From Chrysophaeum taylorii (taxonomy: Eukaryota > Sar > Pelagophyceae > Pelagomonadales > Pelagomonadaceae), in contig JAQMWT010000633.1 of NCBI GenBank assembly GCA_029834535.1, forward strand, positions 1 to 40,944: 40,944 nucleotides of DNA. The letters are read 5' to 3'. Below the pieces are notes generated by a model, which was not told where the DNA came from, did no database searches, and was given only the letters and a program-made list of their open reading frames with translations. Both the position numbers and the translations under genes were made by a program. Below are positions 3,174-38,596 of the stretch, in pieces; position 1 is the first letter of the stretch; every line of letters begins with the position of its first letter.

Positions 3174-3323
3174 GCGTCCGGCGTCCGCGCCACGACAGAC
3201 CATTAACTGCTGTGTGTGCCCGCCCCTGGAATGTCTAGAAGACGACGACAACAACAAGTTATTCTATATTCTTAACTACTAATCGACAGATCCTAACTAC
3301 TAATCGACAGATGTTTGTCTGTC
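3172..3323. repeat. Short direct repeat and TGTC-rich flank of Helitron copy 2
   Basis: The 17-base segment CTAACTACTAATCGACAG occurs in near-identical form at about 3272-3290 and 3292-3310. It is followed by ATGTTTGTCTGTCTG. The same TGTC-type microsatellite recurs on the far side of copy 2 (4519-4551), which suggests insertion into or next to a (TGTC)n tract. Confidence 0.5.
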
Positions 3324-4519
3324 TGTTTGTCCCTCGAAGGGTAAGGATCAGGTAGGCCCGAGAGTAAGGATCAGGTAGGCGCGAGGCCAGACAGTGATCC
3401 TCCACGCCGTCTACGGCGACCTCAGACTATTTCCACGAGCCGCGGCGGCTCTTTCATCAGCGCGCCATTCTCACGCCCCGGCGAACGTGTTGTCGCTGCT
3501 GACAACGCCGCGGCAATGTGACCGCGGCTTTTTTTTTTTCATTTTTTTTTCTTTTTTTTTTTTTTTTTTTTTTTTTCCCCCTCTTTTTTTTTTTTTTTTT
3601 TTTTTCTTTTTTCTTTTTTTTGTTTTTTTTTTGGTTTTTGTTTTTTTTTTTTTTTTTTTTTTTCTCCCGGAGAAACGGAGGCGTCGGAAGTTTCTTTTCG
3701 GCTGACTAGGCTGGGTCGGAAGACGACGCCTCTTCTTTTAATACAGTAGAGTTTTCACAACTCCCTGACAAACCAACGGGATGCTGACTTTGAGCGGCGA
3801 GCTTAAGGTCTTCGAAACCCTCGACCCGTCGCACACGGCCACTGCAACGGTAACCAGATACATGATCGATCGTGTCGTTGTCACCGAGGCTCCTCCACCT
3901 GTGTACCTCAAGCCCCACCGACGCCAAACGATCAACAAGAGCCAGAGGGCAGACGCCCCGCAAGGTCGGCGTCCTCTTACCAAACCCGTCTTCTGCCACT
4001 CCAGCTCTACGTGGCTCTCTGTCGATCGGCAACCCGAGGATACGCTCTTCTGAGTTCGACGATTCCGCCCTACCCCACACGTGCTGCGCAATAACTAAAA
4101 TATAAGCCCTCCCGGCGTCTACACGCGCACTGTAGGTGAGCTTACTGGGCCAGGTGAACTTACTGAGGTTTGAGATGGGATTAGCTAGCTGAACTTAGTG
4201 ACCAGGTGAACTTACTGGGATCAGGTGAACTTACTGGGGGTTTAAGAGTAAACTCAAAGGTTAGCGGCGTGTGCGGATCAAAGCGCCTTAGATTGGCGGA
4301 GGCGAGAGCGACGAGCTCGAAGGAGTGGGTGTGAGCTAGGTGAACTTACTGACCAGGTGAACTTATATGAAACTTACTGGACCAGGTGAACTTACTGGGG
4401 TTAGAGATTTGGACTAGGTGAACTTACTGACCAGGTGAACTTACATGAAACTTACTGGATTAGGTGAACTTACTGGGGTTAGAGATTGGGACTAGGTGAA
4501 CTTACTGGCCTGCACTTGT
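3324..4519 (+). mobile_element. Helitron-derived repeat, copy 2
   Basis: It begins TGTTTGTCCCTCGA and ends GGCCTGCACTTGT, like copies 3 and 4. Read across frames it shows the C-terminal helicase part of a Helitron Rep/helicase: a VYGDL start near 3404, AILTP-type residues, then a TINKSQ segment near 3930 and KPVFCH near 3985. These match the Helitron pattern MTINKSQGQTL..VGVYL..PVFSHGQLYVALSR. The frame is broken by many indels. Inside it (about 3532-3664) a short T run present in the other copies has grown to about 130 bases of nearly pure T. The 3' third (4130-4519) is the AGGTGAACTTACTGG array. Confidence 0.75.
4130..4519 (+). repeat. AGGTGAACTTACTGG minisatellite (Helitron copy 2)
   Basis: About a dozen variants of AGGTGAACTTACTGG(GACC), partly arranged in a higher-order unit with GGGTTAGAGATTGGGACT. 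A non-repeat block (about 4251-4330, ACTCAAAGGTTAGCGGCGTGTGCGG and onward) splits the array and is shared with the other copies. Confidence 0.85.
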
Positions 4520-6495: not shown

Positions 6496-6499
6496 AAAT

Positions 6500-6857
6500 G
6501 TCGACTGCTAAGAGGGGGGGGTGTGTGTGGGGAGCATGAAGGATGTGGGTGGGTTTGTGGGGTATGAGGGATGTGCCTGACGGGCGGAGATAAGTACGCG
6601 GGACCTAGTCGGGGTCATCGCCGAGGCGTGGGGCAGGCGAAGAGAGGACGGGCCCCGCCCGTAGGTCGTACGCATGCTGCCGCCGGACGTATGTGCGACG
6701 AAGGGTGACGTCCTGCTGGGATCGGGCGGCCTGGGCGGGGTTCCCCGAGGCGGCGACATGGGTGAGGGCGGTGAGGGCATAGCGAGCCCGGCCTAATGCG
6801 TTGGCGATCCCCCACTCACGGTAGATGCGGCGAGTTTGGGCCGCCTTTGCCTCTGTG
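6500..6857 (-). pseudogene. Remnant of an unidentified ORF between LTR element and Helitron copy 3
   Basis: On the minus strand a frame from about 6857 to 6600 reads KAAQTRRIYREWGIANALGR and then an Ala-rich stretch ending LGDDPD before a stop. It has coding-like composition (Arg/Ala-rich) but no recognised family, and its upstream part is cut off by Helitron copy 3. The adjoining 6496-6590 (TGTCGACTGCTAAGAGG..GGGGAGCATGAAGGATG) has a second copy split between 8762-8794 and 9101-9163. Confidence 0.35.
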
Positions 6858-7855
6858 TGTTTGTCCCTCGATTTAGGGTAAGGATCAGGTAGGCGCGAGA
6901 GTAAGGATCAGGTAGGCGCGCGAGCCACAGACAGTGATCCTCCAAGCCGTCTACGGCGACCTCGCAGACTATTTCCACGACCCGCGGCGGCTCTTTCAGC
7001 GCGCCATTCTCACGCCCCGTCGAAACGATGTTGTCGATGCTGACAACGCGCGCATGACCGCGGCCTTTTTCCCGGAGACGAGGCGTTGGAGTTCTTTTCG
7101 GCTGACTAGGCTGGGTCGGAAGACGACGCCTCGCTCTTTACAGTCGAGTTTTGAACTCCCTGACAACCAACGGCATGCTGACTTTGATCGCGAGCTTAAA
7201 GTCTTCGCAACCTCGACCCGTCGCACGGCCACTGCAACGGTACCAGATACATGATCGATCGTGTCGTTGTCACCGAGGCTCCTCCAACCTGTATCCCGTA
7301 AGGCCCGCCGACGCCAAACGATCACCAAGAGCCAGGGCCAGACGCCCCGCGAGGTCGGCGTCCTCTTGGCGAAGCCCGTCTTCTGCCACGTCCAGCTCTA
7401 CGTGGCTCTCTGTCGATCGGCAACCCCGAGGATATCCTCTTCTAAGTCGACGACTCCACCCTACCCCACGCGTGCTGCGCAATACCGATAAGCCCCCTCC
7501 CGGCGTCTACACGCGCACTGTAGGTGAACTTACTGGGTCCAGGTGAACTTACTGGAGTTTGAGATTGGGACTAGGTGAACTTAGTGACCAGGTGAACTTA
7601 CTGGGACCAAGTGAACTTACTAGGGTTTTTAGAGTGAACGCAAAGGCTAGCGGCGTGTACGGATCAAAGCAGCTTAGATTGGCGGAGGTGAGAGCGACGA
7701 GCTCGAAGGAGAGTGGGGTGAGTGGGTGTGAGCACGAGTGGGCTTACGCCGAACTTACTGGGGTTAGAGATTGGGACTAGGTGAACTTACTGGGACCAGG
7801 TGAACTTACTAGGGTTAGAGATTGGGACTAGGTGAACTTACTTGCCTGCACTTGT
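6858..7855 (+). mobile_element. Helitron-derived repeat, copy 3 (cleanest)
   Basis: TGTTTGTCCCTCGATTTAGG to GCCTGCACTTGT, 998 bp. Near 6934 a frame reads VILQAVYGDLADYFHDPRRL and then FQRAILTPRRNDVVDADNAR, the Helitron helicase block before motif V/VI. Further on, in another frame, RRRQTITKSQGQTPREVGVL and LAKPVFCHVQLYVALCRSA (about 7308-7420) match the helicase motif VI region (INKSQGQT..VGv.L..PVFsHGQLYVA.SR). Nothing of the Rep domain or N-terminal helicase is present. The same internal breaks recur in copy 4, so this truncated form was itself multiplied. Classical 5'-TC and CTRR-3' ends are not obvious. Confidence 0.8.
7520..7855 (+). repeat. AGGTGAACTTACTGG minisatellite (Helitron copy 3)
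   Basis: Seven to nine variants of the unit, with the same embedded unique block as the other copies (GCTAGCGGCGTGTACGGATC to GAGTGGGCTTACGCC). It ends with TTGCCTGCACTTGT. Confidence 0.85.
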
Positions 7856-7914
7856 TCTTTTTCTACCCCCCTCGAATCAAACTCAAATCAAGAAATGATT
7901 TTGTCCGTTAAATA

Positions 7915-12537: not shown

Positions 12538-13246
12538 GGAGGAATTTTGCCGCTCATTTTTTAGCCATGTGCTGCTGCTGCTGCTGCGGAAGGAGTACTC
12601 CGGCGACGAGAGACGACGACCTCGCCTTCCGGACGCGGCGTGAAGCTTCCGAGCTTTTTTTGCACACTTCGGCTCTCGCTCAAATGGCCACGTTTGCTTG
12701 AATGTGCAGAGCATTTAGAGCAAGCAGTGGTAAGTCAGTCACCTGGGAATCCATCCCGGTCTCATCATGAACTTCAGTGGAAGTGTATTTAATTCGGGGA
12801 ATAATGAAAAGGTATGTTCCCTATATATCCTCAGAACACGACAGGCGGCATCTAGAACTACACGAGAAAGGTTAAGTGTATAGTGATACATACATCGGGA
12901 CGTTCTAGACCATAATGATGAGCGTAGGCGGCTACACAAATCAGAGGACTATTTGATTGTGTAGAAAGGAAGAAGAAGGGTAAGGGAGAGATCACGTTCT
13001 CAACGGACGGCGGATAAGGGTAAGAGGCAGCAGCAGATTTCTCTGTACCCCATCGAGATGTCTTAAGCGCAAGGTGCGACTATAGAGCATCTCTTGAGAA
13101 AGATGATGATGAAGAAAGGAAAAAAAATGGAAAGAAAGGAGCATACAGTCTTGATGGTCGCAGAGGTCACATAAGAAGCATCAAGAGTATAGCAGCAGCA
13201 GGTATAAGAGTATAGCAGCAGCAGCACCAGCAGGGTGTCTTAAGGC
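12538..13246. other. Gene-free stretch, probable 3' end of the large retroelement
   Basis: 12541-12700 is GC-rich 3' flank of the subtilase gene with a (TGC)6 run. From about 12700 the base composition falls to that of the retroelement. CAG-type triplet runs occur near 13190-13230 (TATAGCAGCAGCAG twice). No LTR could be paired with sequence at the other end of the element, and the exact boundary is not visible. Confidence 0.4.
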
Positions 13247-14104
13247 TTAGGACTTGGACTTGGTGGAGCTGAGAGTCGACTTGACGCTTTTGAAAAGAGC
13301 ATTACGAAACACAGGTACGACAGACAGTGTGTTAAGGCTATCTGAGGTGGTGGACATCGTTACTGGTTCGAGAGTATCGGTATCGTCTTCGTCAGCTTCT
13401 GCTGTTGTCAGGTGGTGAACACCAATAGCAGAATGGTGTGGTACCATACGAAACGTGAGTGCAAGCAAAGCATTCAGTATGGATGGCACTAGTGAGTCAA
13501 GTTATAGGGTGTCCAGTTGGTTTTCCGAGAAGTTGGACTCAGCGAACGGATCCGAGAAGATAGAAGGGTCTTCTTCCGATTCACATGTGAAGGGAGTGCT
13601 TCGAATACACGAGAGCAACTTATCACGCAGAAGATGGAGGTGATCGTCCGGGGAGGAATGGTTGGCGGCATATTGGTCATGAGCTGTAAGAGTTAAGCGA
13701 GACAGCAGCTCTGTGATCTTGTACAGAGTTATGAGCAACACGTGTGCATTGGCTGTAGGAGGAAAGAGCCGGTTCTCCAGGGAGGTAATTGAAGCAATGG
13801 CAGCCTGCAGATCTGTACGCAGAGATAGATTCTCAGCGCTGAGGGTGTTGACCTTGCGAGTATGTAGGCGAAGAGTTTCCTGGAGTTGCTCGACTTGTCG
13901 ACGCGAGGCATCGACATCATCAGGCGAGGCAGAAGGAGCATGGTGTGTCGATGGCGAAGGTATTTCCAGAGTAGGTTCTGATGTGGAGAGTGAGTAGTTT
14001 AACGGCGTTTCGGTCAACACATGCAGTGCAAGTAGGGGGTATTTCGCATTTAGAAAGTGCAGAAAGTCTTGATGTTCTGCCGGAGTATAGGTGGGGCCGA
14101 ACAT
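13247..14104 (-). pseudogene. Retroelement 3' extra ORF, distal part (coiled coil)
   Basis: 200-aa frame (14104 to 13502), then a TAA and a further in-frame open stretch to 13247. Residues 31-37 carry the repeated peptide TETPLNY. Behind it lies a Ser/Pro-rich stretch and a coiled coil (QVEQLQETLRLHTRKVNTLS and following heptads). No enzyme family is recognised. The ATG overlaps the stop of the preceding ORF as TAATG, and this overlap contains a 5-bp tandem duplication (TAATG twice). Without one copy the two ORFs would be one frame, so the split is probably secondary. Confidence 0.6.
13996..14015 (-). other. Repeated LNY motif, copy 1
   Basis: Plus-strand 20-mer AGTTTAACGGCGTTTCGGTC. On the minus strand it is read in the ORF frame as T-E-T-P-L-N-Y. 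It lies between the proximal and distal parts of the extra ORF. Confidence 0.8.
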
Positions 14105-15243
14105 TACATTACATCCAGGAGTGTTGGCGGCTTTGTATCATCGGAGGATGATACGTAGTCGTCAAGATGTTGTGCCCACGATTGGGCAACAGTATTACTC
14201 ACATGATGGTATTTGGAGGGCTTGAACATAGCCTGAGCTTTACGAGCCTGTGATCGCACGAGAGTTACAAGAAAGTTAAGATGCTCCAAGTTCATCTGAG
14301 TAATAAACCGAAGATCCAGTGCGAATGGCAGTTGAGTGGTGGAGTCTGTGGCTGCATCGGTTACCGATAAAACTAAATGAGCAAGTAACGGATGTTGCGT
14401 TAGACTGCTAGTCAAGAGAGTATGTAGCTCCTTTGGCAAATGATAGGTGCGTATGATTGTTGCGCGTATATGACCAGCTGAGCACCCATCACAGGAGGAT
14501 TGGAAGGAAGTAGCATTGCGGGCACATACGATAGGTTGTATAGGCACCTGATCGGTGTTGCGACAAGCGCAGCAAATGTTTATGGTGATAGTTGAGATGG
14601 GGATGTGACCATTCTTCTTATGGTCGTCTGTGTTGAGGTGACTCAGCACTTCAGTGGGGAGTTCACGAGGTGCTTGTGACTTCGAATTATATGTGGTGGA
14701 GGCAAGGAATGTAGGTTGTCCCAAATCGTTGAGGCATTGCGCACAGTAGGATGACAGAATGAAACGTTCACGTTTGGGGCCTCTGTAGCAGCCAATAGAA
14801 GCAATAGCAGGAGCAGCTTCCCAAAATGTAGTAATGGGTAGGCGCATGGATATGAATGTTGTTAGTTCCACAAACAGTGAAAAGTCAGCAGACTGGTAGA
14901 TCGAGTTGAGTGCCGTAGAGATTTCCGCTCGCATAAAAGAAGAGAGAAAGGGAGTGGCAGGGATACGGAAGTTCTCAGAGAGAGAGATTCCTCGTTCAAA
15001 CAGGGAAAAATCCATGTTGAGGCCATCCTGGAGTGTTAGGGATTGTTGTAAAATATGTTCAGCTGGTGTCGGTGAGACAGCAGCAGCCTGGGAGGTAGCA
15101 GGAGTAACAGTGGTTATGGGTTGTCGCTTTTGAGACAACTTGGGAGAAGGCTCGGCCGTGGAAAGCGAGCGTGGAATTGTCCTTCGAACGACTGGAGAGA
15201 TGCCACGGCCACGGGAGTGCCAAGAAAAAGACATGAGCGACAC
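14104..15243 (-). CDS. Retroelement 3' extra ORF, proximal part (Cys-rich)
   Basis: 379-aa intact frame downstream of RNase H, where ordinary Copia elements have no gene. It opens with a basic Arg/Ser stretch and has a middle region with CxxC-type pairs (YCAQC, CCAC, CDGC) that could bind zinc. The C-terminus is helical. There is no match to a known env, chromodomain or helicase family and no clear membrane segment. Its frame is undamaged while the pol frames around it are broken, either by chance or because it decayed later. It ends LLDVM-stop at the TAATG overlap with the next ORF. Role unknown. Confidence 0.6.
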   Translation of the reverse strand: MSLMSFSWHSRGRGISPVVRRTIPRSLSTAEPSPKLSQKRQPITTVTPATSQAAAVSPTPAEHILQQSLTLQDGLNMDFSLFERGISLSENFRIPATPFLSSFMRAEISTALNSIYQSADFSLFVELTTFISMRLPITTFWEAAPAIASIGCYRGPKRERFILSSYCAQCLNDLGQPTFLASTTYNSKSQAPRELPTEVLSHLNTDDHKKNGHIPISTITINICCACRNTDQVPIQPIVCARNATSFQSSCDGCSAGHIRATIIRTYHLPKELHTLLTSSLTQHPLLAHLVLSVTDAATDSTTQLPFALDLRFITQMNLEHLNFLVTLVRSQARKAQAMFKPSKYHHVSNTVAQSWAQHLDDYVSSSDDTKPPTLLDVM

Positions 15244-15305
15244 TCACACGACACGTACAAAAAAAAAAATGTGGCAAAAGAAGGTAGGGCCAGGGGTAGT
15301 TTGCT

Positions 15306-15325
15306 AGTTTAACGACGTTGCGGTC
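15306..15325 (-). other. Repeated LNY motif, copy 2
   Basis: AGTTTAACGACGTTGCGGTC on the plus strand. On the minus strand the corresponding frame reads T-A-T-S-L-N then a stop where the other copies have Tyr. It follows the RNase H frame and precedes the extra ORF. Confidence 0.75.
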
Positions 15326-15342
15326 ACTAGGGTTAGGCATCT

Positions 15343-15660
15343 TCAATCCTGTAAAGGATTGTCGTCAGAGGCATGATGCATACCGAGTAGAGAGCGAAAG
15401 GTGGAGAACTCAGCAGCAAGTGGTTTTGTAAAACCACCCGCCACGTTTAGCTTGCCGGGAACATGATGGACTCGTATTTTCTGAAGCGATATGTACTCAC
15501 GAATTTTAAACCATCTGGTCGACAGTGCCTTGGATCGAGAGGACCCATCTGGGTTATTAGAGGTGTGAACAGCGGCAGCATTGTCAGACAAGAGAGGTAG
15601 GCTTCTGATGAAGCGCATATCGTCAGCAATTGGGTTGTCATTGTCATCGAAGACATAGGA
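15343..15660 (-). pseudogene. Copia RNase H, C-terminal part
   Basis: The frame contains LLSDNAAAVHTSNNPDGSSR, the Copia RNase H pattern (sDNqaai.l..np....r.KHI), then WFKIREYISLQKIRVHHVPG and FTKPLAAEFSTFRSLLGMH, the usual end of a Copia polyprotein. The connection domain and the N-terminal half of RNase H (the YSDADWAG and SSTEAEY blocks) are missing between this and the RT end near 15660, so a large piece has been deleted. Confidence 0.75.
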
Positions 15661-16980
15661 TATTTAAGCGGGGTCAGTTGCTGCAAGACTGGGTGATCAG
15701 CGAAGAGTTCATCCAGCTTGGCTTGCACTTCCAGAGAAATGGAACCGTCAGATGTGCGACACACACGCATGCCTAGGAGGGTATGGACAGGTTCAAACTG
15801 CTCTACAGCATAGCGTTTGTGGAGGGCATCCTGTAACTCGGTACGAAGAGGGTCATCATTGGACACAATAACAATATCGTCTACAGACTGACTGCATACG
15901 ACGAACTTAGCATGTGCGGATACTCGAGCATATAGGCAAGAGTCCGAATGCAGGCGTTTGTAGCCAAGGCTACGGAAGAAGCCGTCTATCTCTTTGTTCC
16001 AAAGATGGTGATTGCCGAAGTCCATAAAGTGACTTCAGCAGTTTCGGTAGACGTCGGCCCTTGTACTTAGCGTCATCGGGGTCGATAAGCTTGATGCCGT
16101 CTGGTAACTGAACATAGACGTTGGCATCAATGTCAGACTGAACGAAGGCGTTCGGGACGTCTGCATGGTAGACAGGCAATTGCTTGTATGCTGCAATAGC
16201 TAGTAGTACCCGGATTGCGGTCATGGTGGCCATGGGGCTGAAGGTGCCAAAGAAATCGGCGCCAAGAGATGCTAGGAAGCCACGTAGCACGAGGCGAGCC
16301 TTGTGCTTGACGTATTTGCCTGCAGAGTCTGTTTTAATCTTCAGCACCATCTTGCTGTCAATAGGACGAGAGACACCGTCGGGTAAGGAAAGTTTGAAGC
16401 AGCCAAAGCGGATAATGTCGTGGAGTTCCTTGGCGATGGCCTTGAGGTAGGCGTGCCTGTTTTCAGGCGACAAACCGTGGAGGCACTTGAATTTATATTC
16501 GTCAATGGAAACGTCAGCTTCTTGGACCTTATATTCGTCAGGACCAACAATGGCTGGTGAATTATAGTTTAGCGACGTTGCGGTCGAAGCAGTGTGCGCA
16601 ACTTCGAGATAAGCGGAAACATAGTCAGTAGGAGTAGTAGGGGCAGATTCCAGTTGAATATGGATAGTAGGGTCGGTGTGTAAGACCTGGGTGATAAACT
16701 CTGTAGAGACCAGAAGGTATTCCTCCAAGTCAGCCAGAGATGCAGAAGTAGCGCCAAACTCGGAGGAGTTGTGATCAATAAAGCTGGTCGGCGCCAGGTA
16801 CGTAAGTGCATATTGTAAGGAAGAAGTGCCAAAGGCAGCAGCGTGTTCAGTGAACGCAGATAAAAGGGGCTGAGGAATGGGGCACGCAGGTGAACCATCA
16901 GCAGTTAAAGGTTGCAGCTGGGATGCTGGATGCGCACTTGGCGTGGGCGAAGTAACCATCGACGTGCGGGTAGCGGGCAA
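15661..16980 (-). pseudogene. Copia reverse transcriptase (frameshifted)
   Basis: First frame (16980 to about 16020): SKMVLKIKTDSAGKYVKHKA then RLVLRGFLASLGADFFGTFS and YHADVPNAFVQSDIDANVYV, the classic RVT_2 blocks (K-x-K-x-D-x-G..KARLV.rGf...D...tFsP and D-V-x-N-A-F). KSLYGLRQSP follows. Second frame (16025 to 15661): FFRSLGYKRLHSDSCLYARV, then QSVDDIVIVSND where active Copia RTs have YVDDI, and LLGMRV. The Tyr-to-Ser change at the catalytic box and the frameshift near 16025 argue for loss of function. The repeated peptide TATSLNY lies upstream of the RT blocks at 16566. Confidence 0.88.
16566..16585 (-). other. Repeated LNY motif, copy 3
   Basis: AGTTTAGCGACGTTGCGGTC on the plus strand. 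In frame on the minus strand it gives T-A-T-S-L-N-Y, between the integrase C-terminus and the RT core. Confidence 0.8.
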
Positions 16981-18832
16981 GTAAGTCAGTGCGCAACGGG
17001 AGAAGAAGACGAGCTAACAACGCATGTTCCCCCTCTGAGCAGATAGCAGACCAGAGGATACCACCATTGAGATGAAGGGCGGAGAGGGCGGGAGACTTGA
17101 ACGTAAGAAAGTGGTGGCGAAGATCCCAGCGGAAATCGGCGAGTTTGCCACCAGCGGCTTTGTAAGCACCAATAGTAGACGCTTGTAACCGGGCTTGGAT
17201 AGTTTTCATAGAAGTGGCCTTGCGTGTTTTGGGCTGTTTGGATCCTGGGACAAGAGTGAGGTCATCTTGTGAAAAAGGTCTTCGTAAGAAGGAAGCAAGG
17301 GCGGCGGTGACATAGAGCCAGAATCGTCGGCGAGAGTGTCAGAAGAGGGAGGAGAGGCAGGAGCAGGGGACGAAGAAGGAGCTGAAGGAGGTGGGGAGTG
17401 ACCCCTCTGAGGATGAGGAGTCCTTGTTCCCCTCTGAATGACATGGTCTTGGATAGCGGCGTGGGGTGTGAGCGAGAAAGACGCGGGAGGAGCGTGAGGC
17501 GGAGGAGCAAGTTCAGGATCAGGAGTAGGATGATGCAGCATGTAGAGGAATTGCAGCTTGGACGAAACACGAATTTGTCCGTTTTCAGGGTTGAGGACGA
17601 CGTCAGCGAGATGGTCGACGCGTGGGGAGACGAGCGGGTTTTGCGCGTTGGCGCAACAGAGATATAAATATTTGCGGCGGCACGGTTCCCACTTGTGGTG
17701 TTCATGGGGCTCCAATAGAAGGTAACATTCAGCGCCAAAAATCTTGAGCATATTGGGGAGTGTTGAGTTGGTTGTAGAGTAGCTGTTGCGGACTCAGGAT
17801 AGCATGATGAATGCGCTCGAGCGTGGCGTTCGGGAGAAGGTTGTAGCTTTGAACGGTGTGTATCACCGCCCACGGAAACATGATGGCTGGTTCCACGATC
17901 TTGGCGCCACGATAGTGAGCATTAAGGAGAGAACGAAGGCGAGTTGAGGAGGCGGAGGCGATGAAACCGATGGCGGACTCAACTTCAAAGTTAAAGTGCT
18001 GCATGTACTGCGGGAAGGCGATAAGTTGAATGCCCCTATCGATGCGGCACGGGGAGGTAGTGTGCTGGCTAAAGTAGGGCTTGAAGGCATCGGAGTAGAG
18101 GGTGCGCATGTGCACGTTGAGTTGTGTACGACAAAAGTCATACACAAAATCCAGAGCCTGAGTGAACTCCGTGGCGTTGGTGGTGCGTGTAAAGTACACC
18201 AAGAGAAATTTGGAGATGAGTTCCTTGAAGACGATGATATGTGTGAAGCCTCCCCATTCGGATGGGATGGTCACATAGCCGCCGTCGCACGCCCAGACTT
18301 CGCCGGCATTGTGAGTTTGCTCAAAAGAAGGCTTGGTCGCATTGAAATGCTTGTGCGGGTGGCGCTTGTTGTGTGCGATGCAGTCGGTGCATAAGTCGCG
18401 ATATGGTATGTCAGAAGCAGAGAATCCAGAGCGAGCAAGTACGTTGGGGGGATTGGCAGCGACGTTGTCGGGGCAGTGATGCACTCGGTGGAAGCGATTG
18501 GCACGTTCTTTGGCATTGAGATATTCGGTGGACCCGTGTGCGAGGGACTTACGAGGAATGGAATGAGCGGGAATATGCCGTTTGCGCCGAACATCGAACT
18601 TGAGTTCGGTGTCTAAGGCAGGGGAAGGCGGTACGTCGTCATCCTGGTGCGCAGCAGGGTCACTTGAAGGTGCATCCTCATCATCACGAGTAACGAGAGT
18701 ATCTTCGTAGGACGAAGATATATAGTTTAACGACATTTCGGTCAAGCAGTTGCTGGAAATAGACATCATAAAAGCTTGTGCCAAAGACAAGGTATCTGTG
18801 CTGCACGTGGTGGAAGCTTGATCAACGGTCAT
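16898..18832 (-). pseudogene. Copia integrase with C-terminal extension
   Basis: From 18832: N-terminal linker with the repeated peptide TEMSLNY (residues 34-40), a zinc-binding stretch (FHRVHHCPDN ... LCTDC), then the catalytic core with Asp in VWACDGGYVT, Asp in LYSDAFKPYF about 66 residues later and Glu in FNFEVESAIGF about 36 residues after that, fitting D,D-35-E. After a frameshift near 17750 the usual Copia block LKIFGAECYLLLEPHEHHKW follows, then a Ser/Pro-rich spacer. Further small frames (17209 to 16898) continue toward RT. A 363-bp insertion separates the core ORF from the upstream frame. Confidence 0.85.
18724..18743 (-). other. Repeated LNY motif, copy 4
   Basis: AGTTTAACGACATTTCGGTC on the plus strand. 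In frame on the minus strand it gives T-E-M-S-L-N-Y, between methyltransferase and integrase zinc finger. Confidence 0.8.
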
Positions 18833-18844
18833 GAAATTGGATAC

Positions 18845-19207
18845 TAACTAACTAACTAACTTCAGACCTCTCCCGAGCATGGGAGCCAGGCCGGACCGAC
18901 AGGAGCCAGTCCGGAATCACGGGCCTGTAGACGAGGGGCGCCGAAAGGTGGGTCGGCGGAGAGTGATCATCAAGCTTGTCGCCATGCGACGAGGAGACCG
19001 CGATGTGACTGACAACCAACTCGTCGATAACCTTCCGTCTGCGCCCCCCGGCCATACCCCGTCCCACTGCGAACGTTCCGGCTGCCAACCGGCCCGCCCG
19101 GGAGGCGAATAGGTGCCAACCTGCGCCGGGAGGGCGGATGCCCTCGCAAGGCTCAGGATTCATGAGGCACCGTCCTCCATCGCAACCACGCGGTCGGCGA
19201 TCAGGGT
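18845..19207 (-). mobile_element. 363-bp SINE/LINE-like insertion inside the retroelement
   Basis: A GC-rich block foreign to the surrounding element, flanked by the 10-bp direct repeat AATTGGATAC (18835-18844 and 19208-19217). On the minus strand it ends in (GTTA)4, a short tandem tail as found at the 3' end of several non-LTR families. The minus-strand frame of the host element continues in phase across the site if the insert and one target copy are ignored, so it interrupted an existing frame. No tRNA-type A/B boxes are clear, so a 5'-truncated LINE tail is as likely as a SINE. Confidence 0.8.
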
Positions 19208-19239: not shown

Positions 19240-20859
19240 GCAGTATGTTGGAAGGTAGGGTCCAACATAAGGGATTTAATATCGGCAACGAGGAGCGAGA
19301 GGTGCTTGTACAGAGTACTGTACGTGCCGGCAGGCAGAGCATTGCTGAGCATGTCACAGCAAAGGTCATGGCGCAGAGACAGGAGGAAGGATTCCTGTTG
19401 TTTGGTGTGGTTGTTCGCACGAATCAACTCCGGTCGAGTGGGGTAGCGTAATTTCCCGATGCGGGGGTCGAGTAAGATTATATTGGCGTACCCTCGGACG
19501 GTGGGCAATGGAGCATGCACGGAGTGGATTTTAGAGCCGAGTTTGCGGTCACTTCCACGAAGGTATCCTATATAGCGACTATCAGATAAGTGGTGGTCTT
19601 CCAGAGCAAAATGAGAGTCCTTGTAGTCGAAAGAGTTGGCGGTGGCCTTGTAGGTAAGGCAGCAGGCATCACAAGAGAGCATATGGACAAGAGCTTTTGT
19701 ATGGCGGTGCCATAGGTGGCAGCGGAACCAACTTGGGGAAGTGCTTGGACTATCCACAAGTAACCCATGAACGGCTCCAAATATATGGACCTGTCGCGGT
19801 CGCGGGGAATGTCGGAAGCAGTGAACGTGTACGTGCATCCAAACGCGTCAATAGAAGCATGATATTTGGTGGTGGCGTTCTCTATGGTGAGGTTGCCGTC
19901 AGAGTGGTGGCCACCAGGTTGCATTGGGTAGTGGCTCCATAGAGGAGCGTTTAAAGCACAGCTGATGATAAGTACACTCGGATTGAACAGAGTGAGTACG
20001 TTGCTCGTGAGCCTGTTGTGAGTGAAGGCGAAGCAGTAACATATTGAGGGATTCAAGGTCAGCCATAGTAAGCTGAACAGAACCTGTGCGAGAGTAAGGT
20101 GCAAACGTTTTAGGAACGGGGATATATGGAGGATCGGAGAACACCCGGATCCAGTCTTTGGATACGTGTTTAGGTAGCCAAAGGCGCTTGGAAATAGCTT
20201 GTAGATCATCCACAATCTTTAGGAAATGGATGGAGGATTGGCCACGACAATATTTTAATTAGTCCAGTAGAATACCTGCGTGCGATGCATATCCATCTTT
20301 CTCTAGATTAGTAGTCGCCACGGAGGTAGGTCGGGAGCCTATCAACAACATCGACACAGTAATCAAGCGTTGCATGGATAAGATTGGCCACTGTGATGTG
20401 GTCTTGATGACAGTACTTATGTGGAGGCGTCATCTCCGCCAGTAGTACCAAGGGCTGGAGTAACTTGATGACAGACAACATGCTGTCGAAAAGAGAATCG
20501 TCCAGCAGGCTGTGTAAGTCTTCTGTCTTATGCTGTTTTAGTAAATTCCTGTTTGTGCAAGGAGGGGTGATCTCAATTATATCACAATAGAATGTGCGCC
20601 TTTCCTCTGGTGAGATTAGGTGAAGATGGTTAATAAAGGCGGGGAGAGATTCAAATAATAATACAGTAGGGAAACGGTGGCGTAACATACGAACAAGCGT
20701 ATCATCAGACTCAACAACAACTTTTACATTGATATTTAAGCCTAAGTCACTAGTGGCTTGAGACAGGAACGCCGGAGTTGACAAACCAGAACAAAGTAAC
20801 ATGACAGAAGGTTTGCGGAGATTGGACTCTTGTGAGAGAAACACTGGGCGTGAAAGTAG
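19240..20859 (-). pseudogene. C5-cytosine DNA methyltransferase domain
   Basis: Conserved motifs appear in order on the minus strand. Motif I-like VMLLCSGLSTPAF (about 20800-20770), II-like VVVESDD, IV DIIEITPPCT with the catalytic Cys codon at 20557-20559, VI-like LVLLAEMTPP (about 20415-20445). VIII follows: a TAA at 20308-20310 is directly followed by SRERWICIA, the QxRxRxxxIG signature with a stop at its Gln. Then a TRD-like region in shifted frames. Finally PLPTVRGYANIILLDPRIGK, LRYPTRPELIRA (IX) and DMLSNALPAGTYSTLYKHL (X, usual form Q-x-G-N-A-x-P). It lies in the same frame as the protease, separated by one TGA (20860-20862). Spacing fits a full-size DNMT; it is now inactive. Confidence 0.85.
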
Positions 20860-22174
20860 TCAAGTTAATGGCTGCGTATTTTGCTGAACAAACTTGTTCT
20901 GTTTCCGAAGATTGAGAACCAAAGGGCGAATCCACGGGCGATCTGGTAAAACTCTTTGGAGTAGATAGTTGTAGTATGCCAGTAGATCCCTGTTTTCATG
21001 GTATCGCTTGAGGGGAAATGCGAGGGAACGAAGTTCGAGTTGCTTGTCGCGAGCGATGTTGTAAGTGAGACAAGGGAGAGCAGGTAAATTAGCTGCTATG
21101 TAGTGTATGGGGATACGTACATCTTTGTCTATGCGGCTCGTGACAGCGCTGAGCTTTGGCTCAGCTCGATCATTGAACACAGTGGTCAGGTTCGTCTGGT
21201 TCCACTCGAGCATGCTCAGAATAGCGAGATGTCGGTCATGCACTGGTTGAAGACATAAAGCGAATCTTAACATAGCCAACTTTTGGATGATCTGTTAGGG
21301 GAACAACAATGTTACGTGTTAACATCATGTGTGAGGCACGTTGTTGTCCTGTAGCCGTTTGAATAACAATCGGCGCATATTTGGAGTCCAGTGGAATTAT
21401 ATGATTGGGTATTGCAAAATCGTAAGTGGACATCAATGAGATGGTAGCACAAGAGTCAAAATATAGAAAAGAACAATGTGGAGGGACACTGTTTACCTTC
21501 ATGTAGTTGGTGAGGAAGGCGTTTTCCGAATGTGGGCAAGTAGTGGAGAGGCTGGCTGTGAAGAAGTTCTCCAGCAATAACAGATTCGTTGGAATAATAA
21601 TCGGTTGAACCGGTGGTGATGGTTCGTCAGCCTCATCAGCCATGCCGTGCTTTTCATCAAATGACGATAGCGAAGTATGATCGGCATCCCTTTTGGTTTC
21701 GGCTTGTGATGTTAGGTTGAGGGCAGATTGGACCTGTGAAGATAGCGAGGACAATAACGCAGGTGGTAAAGCCGAGATGGCGGAAGCGGTAAAGAGGTTC
21801 GGCACGATGTTGGAAGGATTACCCTGTGTGTTTGTAGTAGGAGGAGTTGCCTTTGGGGTGGGAGCAGTAACAACAGTATGGTGTTGTGGCTCCACGTAGT
21901 TTAACGACTTTTCGGTCGAGGATAGATGAACGTCTACATCATAAATGATGTCTTCTGCAAACATGAGCTGTTCGTTTAGACGAAGTAAACTACTGTTGTC
22001 CTCAGTAGATGTCGTTGACAGAATGTCAGCTGATTGTAATAGAGTCTCAAATAACTTGTTGATATTCTGTTGTAGCTGAGCCGTGGTATCATTATCTGTC
22101 AAATGCATCGTAAGTTCACTACACTGTTCTCGCAGGGTGTTTAAGGTGTGATTTGTTCGATCTAATAATTTCAT
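20860..22174 (-). pseudogene. Gag-pol linker and retropepsin
   Basis: The 312-aa frame from 22174 begins with a coiled coil, then the repeated peptide TEKSLNY (about residues 87-93), a Pro/Thr/Ser-rich spacer, and a retropepsin-like domain: FLYFDSCATISLMS is the catalytic D-S/T-G region in altered form (Asp codon near 21455-21457), followed by QTATGQQRASHMMLTRNIVV. A frameshift near 21250 moves the frame to RFALCLQPVHDRHLAILSML, the expected closing part (..dLLLG...L). This second frame runs to a TGA at 20860-20862 and continues in phase into the methyltransferase. Confidence 0.75.
21898..21917 (-). other. Repeated LNY motif, copy 5
   Basis: AGTTTAACGACTTTTCGGTC on the plus strand. In frame on the minus strand it gives T-E-K-S-L-N-Y, between the Gag-like coiled coil and the protease. 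Confidence 0.8.
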
Positions 22175-22207
22175 GTTAGACCGAGAGGACCTGTCAAAAA
22201 TGCGGGT

Positions 22208-23580
22208 TTAAATTGGACGGTCATGGGACTGTCCAGCAGTTTTCTTGGTGACGTAGGAATCACCAGAACGATAATACGATAAATCGTTGCGAGAGAAAGG
22301 CTGGCGAGCATCATTAGAGTTACGCAAGCGTCTAGCATTAAACGCGGAAGATGTACCAGGTTGAGACGAAGAATGGATGAAGGCGAGTGTGTTAGCAGTT
22401 TGAGTCAGACTTTTGTCTGCTGAATCCAGAGTATTTGTAAGTAGTAACTTTGGCTTTGGTTGAGATGATAAACCTTCGACGTAGGGTTGCCAAGAAACGG
22501 GGCGTTCTAAGCGTCTTTTGTTCGACCCATCTGATACTACATTGTATAGGTCTAATGCGTATTCTAAAATGTAGCTAGGGTTGGTAGGGTGACACAATCG
22601 TTCAGCTTCTGGCACAGGCCGAGATGAAGATCGGGTTTCATACATATAACACCAATCTACCCAACCACGATCGTAACGATTGTTGCTGGTATTATCGGCA
22701 TAATCCTGATGTATCTCTTCATAGATTTTTCTACAAAGAGTGCCAAAGTCGAATTGAAGGTCAGTCTCTTCCTGGTTAAGTTGGTAAGAGATTTGTCTGA
22801 ATGCTAGGGCAGCTTCGATAAATACATGGACATACCAGTTAGGATTATAAACAACAGAGTTATAAAAAAATTGCTGTTTCAAATAAGACACATCAGTAGT
22901 CGTAACAGACTCGTAGTGACTAAAGGCGATGAGCATAATAAATAGCTCGAGAGCCTTGTTGGGCAAATAACTTTTGTTGTATATACCTCATTGATGGTGG
23001 GCCAGGCCGCAAGTGCTGTGGTTTTCCAACACTTTCAAGATTGAAGTAAGTATGCAAGGATGTAGCATACGTGTTCTGATAAGTGTGCCAGTCAGCAGCA
23101 GTTAACGAAAACATAGTAACAGGGGCACGAACACGGGTGTCGAAAGCTAGTGCCTTCGGGTGCGAGCGATTTAAGATTCGTTCCTCTTCTAAGAAACGGG
23201 CGTTGATTTCAGGACGTAATGCCTCGACTTACTTCATAGTCGTAACAGACAGTAGCTAGCTGAGCTACTTCTGCATCAGGTAAGTGGGGGAAAGCTTCGT
23301 TGGTGAAATGCCATTCCTGATACTCAGGGGGCAATTCATCACCAGCTAAACGGAGATAATCAGCAGCCCTATCGGTCTTCCATTAATAATTAAACGCGAT
23401 CGAGAATTTGATTCCGTTTGATCATCTCGGAGTCCTTGCATGACCGAGTATATGCTTCGTACGAGAGTCGTACTCGAGGAAAGCATCGGCATGACACTGG
23501 GCCGTAACAATTGCTTAATAATGTGCTTGATTGTTTGCAAGGATACCTTGCGAGTCCAGGAACTCGAAGACCTGCCTCCC
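22208..23580 (-). pseudogene. Gag remnant
   Basis: Minus-strand frames from about 23580: VFEFLDSQGILANNQAHY, a stop, then DAFLEYDSRTKHILGHARTP, LRLAGDELPPEYQEWHFTNE, TMFSLTAADWHTYQNTYATS and an intact 252-aa frame (22966 to 22208) rich in Tyr, Asn and Gln, ending in an Arg/Ser/Asn tail. No CCHC knuckle is seen. The last frame ends with a TAA at 22208-22210 and continues in phase for 11 codons to the next ATG, so Gag and Pol share a frame. No enzyme similarity; the call rests on position and composition. Confidence 0.6.
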
Positions 23581-23595
23581 CTTTTTTTTTTTTTG
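23581..23595. repeat. T14 run at the retroelement edge
   Basis: A T homopolymer at 23582-23595. It marks the point where recognisable Gag coding stops, 46 bases before the ATG of the SLC25 gene. Confidence 0.7.
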
Positions 23596-23640
23596 TCTAA
23601 ATATATGGTTAAACCCCCCTTTCAAAAAAACAACGGAAGG

Positions 23641-24534
23641 ATGATGGCTCATCACGAGCTGTCCGACGCGACGATAACGAGCATATCAGGAACCGTGGCT
23701 GGACTGATGGCGACGTTCGCAAAGCAGCCGATTCAGCGCGTCAAGTGGATTCGGCAGACCTCGCCCGTCGAGCAGCCGTACAGCGTCATATTTCGCGAAA
23801 CCCTTCAGAGGTATGGGTGGCGGGGTTTTTTTGGTGGATCCCTCGCCGCGATTTGCCGAAACGTGCCGCACTCGGTGATCGTGTACTCGCTGTACCCGCA
23901 CTGCGCCCAGCTCGCGCGCGAGGAGACCTTTGGGACGCGGTTCGCGGCCGGGTACGTCACGTTGATCCTGTCGACGATGGCGACTCATCCGCTCGACACG
24001 CTCCGCGTGCGACTGTCGGTTCATCCGGACACGATGATAAACTCGGCGACTCGCATCTACAAGACCGACGGGATACGCGGGTTTTACTCGGGATTTGCGG
24101 CCACCTTGATTGGAGCCGGGCCGAGAGGTGCGATCGGATTCGCTATTTTTGAGACGGGAAAGCCGATCGCCCACGACCTGCTTCCAGACCAGCCCGCGTT
24201 CGCCAAGTTTTTGTGCGGTTACCTCGCCGGCCTCGTGGCCGAGAGCCTCGTCTACCCCCTCGACACCGTCCGACGACGACAGCAGGCCCTCGGTCCCTCC
24301 CATCCGATCGGGCGGCTCTCGGCTTTGGTCGCCATCGTGCGCATCGCCCAGGCCGAGGGGGTGAGCGGCCTCTTCAAGGGTATTGCCCTCAACCTCGTCA
24401 AAAATCCCGCGGGAACGGCAGTTTCCTTTGCGGTCAACGACATCGTCAAGGAGGCCCTCGGCTACGAGGGAGGGCAGCACCAGCCGCCATCCCGCACCAC
24501 CACCACCACCACCAAACCTTCATTCTTTGGTTAG
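23641..24534 (+). CDS. Mitochondrial carrier family (SLC25) transporter
   Basis: 297 aa from the ATG at 23641; another in-frame ATG at 23605 would add 12 residues. Three tandem repeats of about 95 aa each carry the carrier signature: PIQRVKWIRQ (about 27-36), PLDTLRVRL (about 118-126) and PLDTVRRRQQ (about 207-216), each P-x-(D/Q)-x-x-(K/R), with following G-(F/I)-x-G segments (RGFFGGSLAA, RGFYSGFAAT, SGLFKGIALN). The first repeat has Gln in place of the acidic residue of the matrix salt-bridge network. Overall resemblance is to CoA/adenine-nucleotide type carriers, but the substrate is not certain. It would sit in the inner mitochondrial membrane. Its TAG stop overlaps the stop codon of the converging gene. 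Confidence 0.9.
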   Translation: MMAHHELSDATITSISGTVAGLMATFAKQPIQRVKWIRQTSPVEQPYSVIFRETLQRYGWRGFFGGSLAAICRNVPHSVIVYSLYPHCAQLAREETFGTRFAAGYVTLILSTMATHPLDTLRVRLSVHPDTMINSATRIYKTDGIRGFYSGFAATLIGAGPRGAIGFAIFETGKPIAHDLLPDQPAFAKFLCGYLAGLVAESLVYPLDTVRRRQQALGPSHPIGRLSALVAIVRIAQAEGVSGLFKGIALNLVKNPAGTAVSFAVNDIVKEALGYEGGQHQPPSRTTTTTTKPSFFG

Positions 24535-26696: not shown

Positions 26697-26776
26697 GTAG
26701 CGATGGCCGAGTGGTCTAAGGCGCCAGTTTTAGGCACTGGTCTTAATGGGCGTGGGTTCGAACCCCACTCGCTGCA
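26697..26776 (+). tRNA. tRNA-Leu (anticodon UAG)
   Basis: 80 nt that fold as a class II tRNA. Acceptor GTAGCGA pairs with TCGCTGC (one G-U), discriminator A. The D region is TGGCCGAGTGGTCTAAGGC, typical of tRNA-Leu. The anticodon stem CCAGT/ACTGG holds the loop TTTAGGC, giving anticodon UAG. A long variable arm and T arm GTGGG-TTCGAAC-CCCAC follow. No intron; CCA is not encoded. It reads CUA codons and is nuclear-type. Confidence 0.95.
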
Positions 26777-36646: not shown

Positions 36647-37442
36647 CAAATCACACGCGCTCTGCTACTATGGGCATCAGATCGGCGCAGCCTGACCCGC
36701 AGCGGTCCGTTCAGACAACAAAGTGGCAAAAAGTGCCGCGAAATAAAAATTTCTTCCTGGATCGACTCAACCTACTATACCGTTATACCTTACGATGACG
36801 ACGCTGGTGGTGCCTTCTTTACTACACCGGCACACAATAATAATCTGGAACATATTTTTCCAGAACAATAATCCAAAGGATAAGTAAGTCCTCCCGCACT
36901 ACTACTACGGTCTTCTTCCTTCCTTTCCATCTTCCTTCCTTCCTTCCTTCCGAGGGAGGCGCTTCCAGGGCGCCATTGCGGAGCTGTCGACGACAGTGGG
37001 GTGGGTGTTTTTCCAGTCGCAGTCGCGCAACGTGCGTGAAGAAAGCATCTTTGAGGACAACCATACAGCCGCACGACGAGCCCTCAATTCATCCTCATCA
37101 CGTATATTTTCTCGTGCTCTTGTTGAGATTATTTTTTTAAACTCGATCTTGACACGCCGCGATCTAAGAAAAGAAAGAAAGAAAGTTCGCGCACACTTTA
37201 AGAGGCCTGACCGCATTCGCTGCTCGTCGCTGGTATCCGGACCCGCTCGGTCCACATCATTGTCCGCCGCATCTGGGACTGTTCGCATCATGACTCTGCA
37301 GCCCGCCGTCGGACGTCCGTGCTTGACGTCTAAGTCTGCGTCTCTCCGCGTCCAGGGTGCCTGCCACACTCGCACTACATGTCATGTCAAATCAAATCAA
37401 ATCAAATCAAATCAAATCGACGCCGCTCTCTCTTCATGAAAA
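36647..37442. other. Gene-free stretch with simple repeats
   Basis: It contains (TTCC)n near 36919-36948, (AAAG)n near 37165-37182 and (ATCAA)n at 37383-37420. Frames of 147-156 codons exist on both strands between 36905 and 37439, but they overlap each other antisense, lack domain features and are rich in Arg/Ser. I do not call a gene. Confidence 0.45.
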
Positions 37443-38596
37443 ACAAGTGCAGGCCAGTAAGTTCACCTAGTCCCAATCTCTAACCCCAGTAAGTTCACCT
37501 GGTCCCAGTAAGTTCACCTAGTCCCAATCTCTAACCTCAGTAAATTCGGCATAAACCCACTCGTGCTCACATCCACTCACCCCACTCCCATCTGAACTCG
37601 TCGCTCTCACCCCCGCCAATCTAAGCTGCTTTGATCCGCACACGCCGCTAACCTTTGAGTTTACTCTAAAAACCCCAGTAAGTTCACTTGGTCCCAGTAA
37701 GTTCGCCTGGTCACTAAGTTCACCTAGTCCCAATCTCCAATCCCAGCAAGTTCACCTGGTTCCAGTAAGTTCACCTGGCCCCAGTAAGTTCACCTACAGT
37801 GCGCGTGTAGGCGCCGGGAGGGGGCTTGAGTTTGAGTTGTCAAAAAACTCCAGTAAGCTCACCTGGTCTCAGTAAGCTCACCTGGTCACTCAGTTCACCT
37901 AGTCCCAATGTCTAGACCCAGTAAGTTCACGTGGTCCCAGTAAGTTCACCTACAGTGCGCGCGTAGACGCTGGGAGGGGGCTTATCGGTATTGCGGGGCA
38001 CGTGTGGAGTCGGGTGGAGTCGTCGACCCAGATGAGTATATCCTCGGGGTTGCCGATCGACAGAGAGCCACGTCGAGCTGGACGTGGCAGAAGACGGGCT
38101 TCGCCAAGAGGACGCCGACCTCGCGGGGCGTCCGGCCCTGGCTCTTGGTGATCGTTTGGCGTCGGCGGGCCTTAAGGGATACAGATTGGAGGAGCCTCGG
38201 TGACAACGACACGATCGATCATGTATCTGGTACCGTTGCAGTGGCCGTGCGACGGGTCGAGGTTGCGAAGACTTTAAGCTCGCGATCAAAGTCAGCATGC
38301 CGTTGGTTGTCAGGGAGTTGAAAACTCTACTGTAAAGAGCGAGGCGTCGTCTTCCGACCCAGCCTAGTCAACCGAAAAGAACTCCGACGCCTCGTCTCCG
38401 GGAAAAAAAGGCCGCGGTCATTCATGCGCGCGTTGTCAGCATCGACAACATCGTTTCGACGGGGCGTGAGAATGGCGCGCTGAAAGAGCCGCCGCGGCTC
38501 GTGGAAATAGTCTGCGAGGTCGCCGTAGACGGTTTGGAGGATCACTGTCTGGCTCTCGCGCCTACCTGATCCTTACCCTAAATCGAGGGACAAACA
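37443..38596 (-). mobile_element. Helitron-derived repeat, copy 4 (inverted)
   Basis: The reverse complement of this segment runs from TGTTTGTCCCTCGATTTAGG to GGCCTGCACTTGT and follows copy 3 closely throughout, sharing its helicase fragment (VYGDLADYFHEPRRLFQRAI, then RRRQTITKSQGRTPREVGVL). It differs by an internal duplication: the AGGTGAACTTACTGG array together with the CCCTCCCGGCGTCTACACGCG-like segment occurs twice (37793-37830 and 37945-37985). The right edge abuts the reverse-transcriptase fragment at 38597. Confidence 0.8.
37450..37960 (-). repeat. CCAGTAAGTTCACCT minisatellite (Helitron copy 4)
   Basis: About 15 units of the same repeat as in the other copies, seen here in reverse complement. 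In this direction each unit contains GTAAGT, the consensus of a 5' splice site. Confidence 0.85.

Follow-up and report, generated by a model that had tools for sequence, protein, structure and literature searches.

A cytosine methyltransferase-family domain within the Pol region of Copia retrotransposons in the pelagophyte alga Chrysophaeum taylorii

The question raised by a stretch of 40,944 nucleotides from Chrysophaeum taylorii (the window; contig C633, positions 1-40944) is whether a C5 cytosine DNA methyltransferase (DNMT) has been built into a Copia retrotransposon, between its protease and its integrase. A damaged Copia element occupies the minus strand of the window from ~23.5 kb to ~12.7 kb, with a gag-protease region, a DNMT-like domain, an integrase, a reverse transcriptase of the RVT_2 family and an extra open reading frame (ORF) downstream following one another along the element. 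A protein encoded on contig C634 of the same genome matches CTAYLR_008533 of this species with 100% identity across its whole length. C. taylorii is a marine golden alga (Stramenopiles, Ochrophyta and Pelagophyceae in its taxon record), and the stramenopile-like host of the original prediction, which had been made from the letters of the window, is thus correct. The presence of three families of such elements, selection acting on the domain and the host lineage support the proposal that a putative cytosine methyltransferase domain is built into Copia Pol in a stramenopile, and the domain in the window is almost certainly a DNMT-family enzyme inside a Copia element.

As predicted, the motifs of C5 methyltransferases occur in order along the minus strand of the window, read across frames, with a catalytic cysteine codon at 20557-20559; the names and the set used here (I, IV with its PC, VI with its Glu, VIII with QxRxR, IX and X, to which II is added) are those that we take to define the class. 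The domain (about 19250-20859, minus strand), which is interrupted in this copy, begins with motif I LLCSGLS (20779-20799; LLCSG.STPAF in 9/9 aligned relatives) and motif II VVVESDD (20701-20721), and continues with motif IV TPPCTNRN (20545-20568; PCTNRN in 9/9) and the motif VI-like AEMTPPH with its Glu (20419-20439; EMTPPH in 9/9, with ENVPP at this site in family 2, described below). A core set of 13 sequences shows no variation at P, C, T and R in motif IV or at E in motif VI. Motif VIII SRERWICIA (20281-20307; Q.RERWI in 9/9), motif IX LRYPTRPELIRA (19416-19451; aligned to IRYATLNEIAKF of family 2) and motif X SNALPAGTY (19320-19346; NA.PAGTY in 9/9) complete the domain. All of these motifs lie between a retropepsin-like FDSCAT (21443-21460) and the integrase motif GEVWACDGG (18278-18304), which places the domain between a protease-like motif, without a Pfam protease match, and the integrase. 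The claim that protease and DNMT share a frame fails in the window copy (protease in frame 1, motifs I-VIII in frame 0, IX-X in frame 2); in L039, a copy that is better preserved, the protease motif shares its frame with the end of ORF1, and this frame is in phase with that of the DNMT ORF.

The assignment to Copia follows from the RVT_2 matches in the window (15447-17013, minus strand, two frames; E=3.6e-25 and 1.6e-9) and agrees with the original prediction, as does the order of the domains. The integrase (rve; about 17729-18847, minus strand; E=4.8e-4) lies upstream of the reverse transcriptase in the window and likewise in a relative, L037 (rve residues 784-866, RVT_2 residues 1431-1651), with rve scores that fall below the curated cut-off. 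The DNMT pieces of the window matched neither PF00145 nor any other Pfam family at E values up to 1. Evidence beyond chance for a DNMT domain is provided by related copies elsewhere in the genome.

The genome as searched comprised 70,800,356 bases in 697 contigs (the genome paper, PMC10366177, gives a 71 Mbp assembly of 702 contigs, and a word search of its main text returned no words starting with 'transpos' or 'repeat'); copy counts for the families are lower bounds, and L-numbers denote places of this genome fetched for comparison. The window copy belongs to family 1a, with at least 150 matches including the window at 77-100% identity (a 183-residue N-terminal DNMT piece, 150 of 887 candidates scored), and a sister family, 1b, has at least 131 matches, the domains of the two being 47-48% identical. 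Nine aligned family-1 domains share invariant key residues: PC, the Glu of motif VI, Q.R.R of motif VIII and NA.P of motif X. The original prediction had proposed to look for intact copies in the same genome; among the places fetched, the domain is open from motif I to motif X in six distinct family-1a places (L010, L037, L039, L042, L043 and L044; seven rows, as L017 is the L043 place). In L037, a single frame of 1691 amino acids (aa) spans the DNMT motifs, rve (E=0.0076), SH3_retrovirus (5.6e-4) and RVT_2 (7.7e-42). A codon pattern for PCTNRN of motif IV occurs at 431 exact sites in the genome, compared with none for the reversed pattern, and its synonymous spellings vary among the places listed. 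Sites spelled CCTTGTACCAACCGAAAT (C4:82689, C17:101504, C23:50771 and C30:33393) lie outside the 1a and 1b matches listed and are perhaps a further DNMT-Copia subfamily.

A host gene that merely adjoins, or was interrupted by, a retrotransposon would account for the broken frames seen in the window copy and for nothing beyond them. This reading is refuted by the repetition of the arrangement across copies, as there are at least 149 other family-1a matches and the domain and the reverse transcriptase share single open frames such as that of L037; its probability is negligible. The 150 best RVT_2 matches were paired with the DNMT matches listed, among which family 2 (see below) was represented by 5 of its at least 147, and 84 had such a DNMT match upstream (1.5-8 kb, same strand). 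The place C344:73999 carries, on reading, a 1b DNMT remnant, and the motif-IV pattern was seen by eye upstream of the RVT_2 places in C2, C54:98148, C76 and C109, among places listed up to contig C114. Intact relatives without the domain had been named as evidence that would count against the prediction: a DNMT stands upstream in 84 plus 5 of the 150 best RVT_2 matches, and some of the other 61 may lack the domain.

A third Copia family, family 2 (at least 147 matches), provides the connection to recognised DNMTs. In L048, one open frame of 1952 aa holds a DNMT (PF00145, E=1.1e-7), rve (E=0.0061) and RVT_2, with rve between the other two, and in L047 a DNMT (PF00145, E=5e-7) and RVT_2 share a single open frame of 1868 aa. 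A genome scan with PF00145 (123 of 474 candidates scored) found at least 57 places, the best of which (1.1e-10) is in family 2 and above the curated cut-off. On family-2 matches (within 600 bp) lay 55 of the 57 places and two lay elsewhere, one being DNMT2-like as named by its relatives and the other presumably DNMT5-like from its SCVDYSSLN motif. The NCBIfam model dcm matches 3/3 family-2 domains (best E=2.5e-8, below the curated cut-off), and PCQ and ENVPP are kept in 3/3. The family-2 codon pattern occurs at 86 sites against 3 for the reversed pattern, and some of these sites may belong to another repeat. A fragment of a Gypsy-like integrase (L045:7875-8999, minus strand; rve E=0.001, Integrase_p58_C E=0.017) was seen close to a family-2 copy. 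The lack of a significant PF00145 match had been named as counting against the prediction; this applies to the window copy and almost to family 1 (best E=0.0089), and family 2 provides the answer to it.

The two families are linked by several comparisons. Smith-Waterman scores of six family-1 domains against L048 were 70-85, reached by 0/1000 shuffles for five of them and by 1/1000 for the sixth; scores against L047 were 70-76 and those of 1a against L046 were 74-78, pairs scored without shuffles. Three single BLASTP comparisons of family 1 with family 2 gave E=0.002, 9e-4 and 0.002 over motifs IX-X, and one of the three also aligned motifs IV-VIII in register, as a separate block. A family-2 hidden Markov model (HMM) scored the nine family-1 domains at 3.2-10.3 bits, with 7/9 (5.6-10.3) exceeding the best shuffle (5.2; 500 run, 299 reported), and gave the best non-DNMT control 0.7 bits (105 stretches, 62 reported, leaving out four from family-2 loci that scored 80-557 bits and were taken as real family-2 DNMTs). 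Conversely, family-2 domains reached 10.0, 8.4 and 3.5 under the family-1 HMM, where no shuffle exceeded 5.0. Collinear aligned blocks cover II-VIII and IX-X, pairing PC with PC, E..PP with E..PP, RERW with KTRY and NALP with NAVP. Identity between the families is 24% in the DNMT, 28% in the integrase and 35-40% in the reverse transcriptase, a gradient that would fit common ancestry of Pol as a whole. On these sequence comparisons, family 1 is best described as a distant homologue of family 2, through which its identity as a DNMT is well supported.

A number of results weigh against a DNMT in family 1 and would fit a Copia-specific domain with a chance likeness to the motifs, leaving only family 2 as a DNMT. 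Against PF00145, 2/9 family-1 domains match (L039 at E=0.0089, below the cut-off, and L057 at E=0.08) and 7/9 give none. In the family-2 HMM comparison, two of the nine domains (4.3 and 3.2 bits) fall below the best shuffle, and the Smith-Waterman scores of 1b against L046, a pair without shuffles, drop to 56-59. A DNMT2 profile scored family 1 at 3.3 at best, compared with 8.5 for the best shuffle, and the host DNMT5-like sequence scored it at shuffle level. Alignment of the family-1 and family-2 profiles with hhalign was not significant (probability 1.6%, P=0.032), and with the I-VIII core alone 31/150 shuffles reached the score and the reversed profile scored higher. AlphaFold gave no usable model of the whole domain or the core (pLDDT, a per-residue confidence score, of 32 and 41), and among the 50 PDB matches listed by Foldseek there was no C5 methyltransferase and none at E<=0.001, a tetrapyrrole methylase (E=0.069) being the fourth match listed. 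Motif VI of family 1 reads EMTPP where family 2 has ENV, without the usual Asn; most DNMTs have ENV in this motif. A family-1 core HMM did score a set of DNMTs above shuffles (mean 0.90 against -1.68; 117 scored, with DNMT2s that are mutually related), but this result is not relied on. Despite these weak statistics and the failed structure prediction, the similarity to family 2 in Smith-Waterman, HMM and BLASTP comparisons, the collinear blocks, the same position in Pol and the full set of motifs in order make a non-DNMT domain in family 1 very improbable. Searches of sequence databases for relatives found none at E<=0.001 among 7984 candidates scored for family 1 and 7995 for family 2, and scans of viral contigs confirmed none.

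The DNMT domain is under purifying selection. Ratios of nonsynonymous to synonymous substitution (dN/dS, NG86 method) were 0.096 for motifs I-VIII of 1a (23 sequences, 253 pairs), 0.191 for I-X of 1a (6 sequences), 0.066 for I-VIII of 1b (9 sequences) and 0.136 for I-VIII of family 2 (9 sequences), with 0.089 for the protease end (13 sequences) and 0.149 for the reverse transcriptase (4 sequences). Two points temper these values: the ratios come from all pairs of open-frame copies that were selected for their similarity to a query, a choice that pushes them downward, and the integrase of 1a gave a high ratio of 0.418 (6 sequences). Because the choice of copies lowers the ratio, the comparison with the reverse transcriptase and the protease weighs more than the value itself. 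A rival reading is a catalytically dead relic of a DNMT that Pol retains for DNA binding or for its structure, and the EMTPP of family-1 motif VI, the very low similarity to known DNMTs, the lack of a CpG footprint (see below) and deviations at motifs IV, VI or VIII in some diverged or damaged copies (L062, L063 and L067) would be in keeping with it. The relic is nonetheless improbable, as the key residues of motifs IV, VI, VIII and X hold in 9/9 family-1 domains, with 1a and 1b 47% identical, PCTNRN is conserved at 431 sites whose synonymous codons vary, and family 2 retains PCQ and ENVPP in 3/3 domains.

The DNMT-Pol ORF of family 1 is separated from the gag-protease ORF by a stop codon (TGA at 20860-20862 on the minus strand of the window, with CTA next). 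This TGA stands ahead of the DNMT in 25/25 distinct family-1a places with a recognised downstream peptide (30 rows, of which five repeat a place). The next codon is CTA in 22 of these places and CTG, ATA and ATG in one each, and family 1b has TGA-CGC in 10/10 distinct places; the stop therefore belongs to the element and is not damage. The frames up- and downstream of the TGA agree in L039 and L044, and L042 has a further UGA-AUA. Rare 1a copies have TGA-ATG or TGA-ATA in place of TGA-CTA (L044 at 2283, L020 and L042). A UGA-CUA readthrough motif was considered as a strict rule and dropped, given the CUG, AUA and AUG variants in 1a and CGC in 1b. No structure shared by 1a and 1b was apparent in RNA folds after the UGA, which were compared by eye and without shuffles. 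In family 2, ORF2 lies in the -1 frame relative to ORF1 and overlaps it, a TGATG stop-start being present in L046 (2330-2405) and L048 (3097-3133), which suggests that these related Copia lineages get past the gag stop by different routes. From these junctions we infer a scheme of expression in which family 1 would first make Gag-protease, ending at the UGA, and a fraction of ribosomes would pass the stop, by readthrough or in a few copies by reinitiation, to make a DNMT-integrase-reverse transcriptase-RNase H product; translation of family-2 ORF2 would start at the UGAUG overlap or follow a -1 shift. Tca2 of Candida albicans is a Copia element. Like family 1, it has gag and pol split by an in-frame UGA (PMC2194720), and it differs in that the passages describing it mention no DNMT and in that the junction alone gave no readthrough in Saccharomyces cerevisiae.

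How such a domain arose and what it does can be proposed as follows. An ancestral Copia element in the C. taylorii lineage may have captured a C5 cytosine methyltransferase gene, placed in Pol between protease and integrase, and then split into three or more families, all of which kept the domain. The protease would free the DNMT within the particle, and the enzyme would methylate cytosines of new complementary DNA (cDNA) before or at integration, such that copies would arrive already marked. As the domain sits in Pol, the element cDNA in the particle would be its likeliest substrate; packaging, catalysis, target and benefit are all steps that we infer. Taken jointly, the DNMT identity and the cDNA role make up an account that we consider probable, and methylation of cDNA taken by itself is a plausible but tentative role for the domain.

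Strong and lasting self-methylation at CpG would predict an excess of CG transitions between copies, and the copies speak against this. Transition frequencies were 0.0199 at CG in 24 copies of 1a (CA 0.0165, CC 0.0216, CT 0.0268) and 0.0364 at CG in 10 copies of 1b (CA 0.0361, CC 0.0281, CT 0.0450), with no excess in either. There being no CpG-deamination footprint, self-methylation therefore stays at the level of interpretation; methylation in other contexts, on RNA, as short-lived marks or in young copies is possible. Observed/expected CpG was 0.82-1.02 in element stretches against 1.15-1.32 in the window flanks, and it is not used as evidence because other repeats vary (0.98-1.23) and the copy mutation test gives no support. 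The missing footprint would suit a true DNMT with another target, either RNA (element RNA or the transfer RNA (tRNA) primer) or the host genome in trans. RNA methylation has been raised for SymbioLINE-Dnmt in passages of PMC5890265, and a further point in favour of another target is that, among the at least 57 PF00145 places, just one DNMT2-like and one DNMT5-like place lie outside family 2. The place in Pol beside the integrase favours action on cDNA in the particle, and the region of ~350 aa between motifs VIII and IX of family 1 fits a target-recognition domain, so that a target other than cDNA is possible but rather unlikely. Somewhat more doubtful still is a broader scenario in which an old and distinct DNMT-Copia lineage dominates the methyltransferase repertoire of the pelagophyte, with elements that may supply de novo methylation to the host and mark their own cDNA, through a UGA-controlled Pol of which the DNMT is the first domain.

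DNMT-bearing retrotransposons are a known kind of element, and, as the original prediction stated, they are known from few lineages: de Mendoza et al. 2018 (PMC5890265) reports dinoflagellates and a charophyte, with LINE (long interspersed nuclear element), DIRS and Gypsy elements as the carriers. Passages of the same paper describe Symbiodinium Copia elements without any DNMT domain and cite Iyer et al. 2011 for DNMTs linked to reverse transcriptase. The C. taylorii families share with these retro-DNMTs a DNMT in the coding region of the element, multiple copies and purifying selection. SymbioDIRS-Dnmt3 (PMC5890265) has a DNMT inside the Pol polyprotein, many copies and purifying selection as here, and its assayed domains methylate CG de novo in yeast; it differs in belonging to the DIRS superfamily, in its tyrosine recombinase, its dinoflagellate host and its DNMT3 class. 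KnitGypsy-Dnmt3 (PMC5890265) also has its DNMT in the Pol of a long terminal repeat (LTR) retrotransposon, but is a Gypsy element of a charophyte with a DNMT3-class enzyme, compared with a Copia element of a pelagophyte and no DNMT class assigned here. In SymbioLINE-Dnmt (PMC5890265) an orphan DNMT lineage is likewise carried by a retrotransposon, in this case a LINE with the DNMT in an ORF upstream of the reverse transcriptase ORF and without integrase or protease. A sentence in PMC12344493 names 'LTR Copia and DIRS' as DNMT3 carriers, and thus a Copia carrier as here; it concerns streptophytes and dinoflagellates, includes no stramenopile and cites the 2018 paper, passages of which name Gypsy, DIRS and LINE.

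For stramenopiles, passages of a survey of their DNMTs name no retrotransposon-borne one (PMC9998398), and in Ectocarpus a DNA transposon has been described that carries a methyltransferase with N4-methylcytosine or N6-methyladenine as its predicted product (PMC12477816). Full-text literature searches found no DNMT in a stramenopile Copia element; these did not cover Iyer et al. 2011, and priority is uncertain. The superfamily, the host lineage and the position within the element are new relative to the known cases. With stramenopiles as a third host lineage and Copia as a fourth element type, and with three divergent families in hundreds of copies, captures of this kind are unlikely to be accidents. 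C. taylorii Copia elements carry, and have kept in hundreds of copies, an enzyme of the kind with which cells ordinarily silence them, and what an element gains from a DNMT becomes a directly testable question. Hundreds of divergent family-1 copies fall outside the PF00145 places and family 1 is nearly invisible to this model, and surveys based on PF00145 would therefore undercount such elements.

The window copy itself is degraded. The TGA had been taken as the lone break of the frame, which needs correction because this codon is conserved in the family; the real damage consists of a stop, deletions and an insertion. The copy-specific in-frame stop lies within the DNMT domain (20308-20310, minus strand) at a site that is Gln in 9/9 aligned relatives. 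Relative to other copies, a 170-bp stretch is missing at 19917/19918, within the part that separates motif VIII from motif IX, and ~640 bp are gone at 15648, between reverse transcriptase and RNase H. A spliced intron was considered for the 170-bp difference and rejected, since relatives read through it in frame and its ends are not GT-AG. The insertion (18845-19207, minus strand), between DNMT and integrase, is copy-specific, 363 bp long and resembles a short interspersed nuclear element, with a tail of AGTT repeats and a target duplication of 10 bp, GTATCCAATT; a 309-bp part of the insertion is found again at L039:6602-6909 with 97% identity.

The gag-protease region (20863-22987, minus strand) runs through several frames and matched no protease or gag family in Pfam at E<=1, nor did the relatives searched yield a Pfam protease match. 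The end of the Pol ORF (15343-15663, minus strand; from the ORF list) is assigned as the RNase H region by position only. The 3' part of the element (12705-15340, minus strand) includes the extra ORF and probably an incomplete terminal repeat; no LTR pair was found within the window copy, and a terminal stretch common to L038 and L039 suggests that the repeats were lost from it. A 226-bp repeat of L039 was rejected as an LTR because it is located at the start of ORF1. The extra ORF downstream of Pol recurs in family 1 (window 14104-15243, minus strand; L043:913-1710; L050:4927-6036), and its window piece has no Pfam match. In L050, sequence related to the extra ORF directly precedes the remnant of a 1b DNMT, and the two appear to be nested or recombined.

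Outside the element, an open frame that by eye resembles a mitochondrial carrier protein adjoins its 5' end (23422-24534, plus strand), and a tRNA-Leu gene lies at 26697-26776 (plus strand). Another dispersed repeat, with copies ~79-95% alike, occurs in both orientations at 660-1361, 3269-4432, 6496-7860 and 37440-38596 of the window, as well as in L043, L044 and L047.

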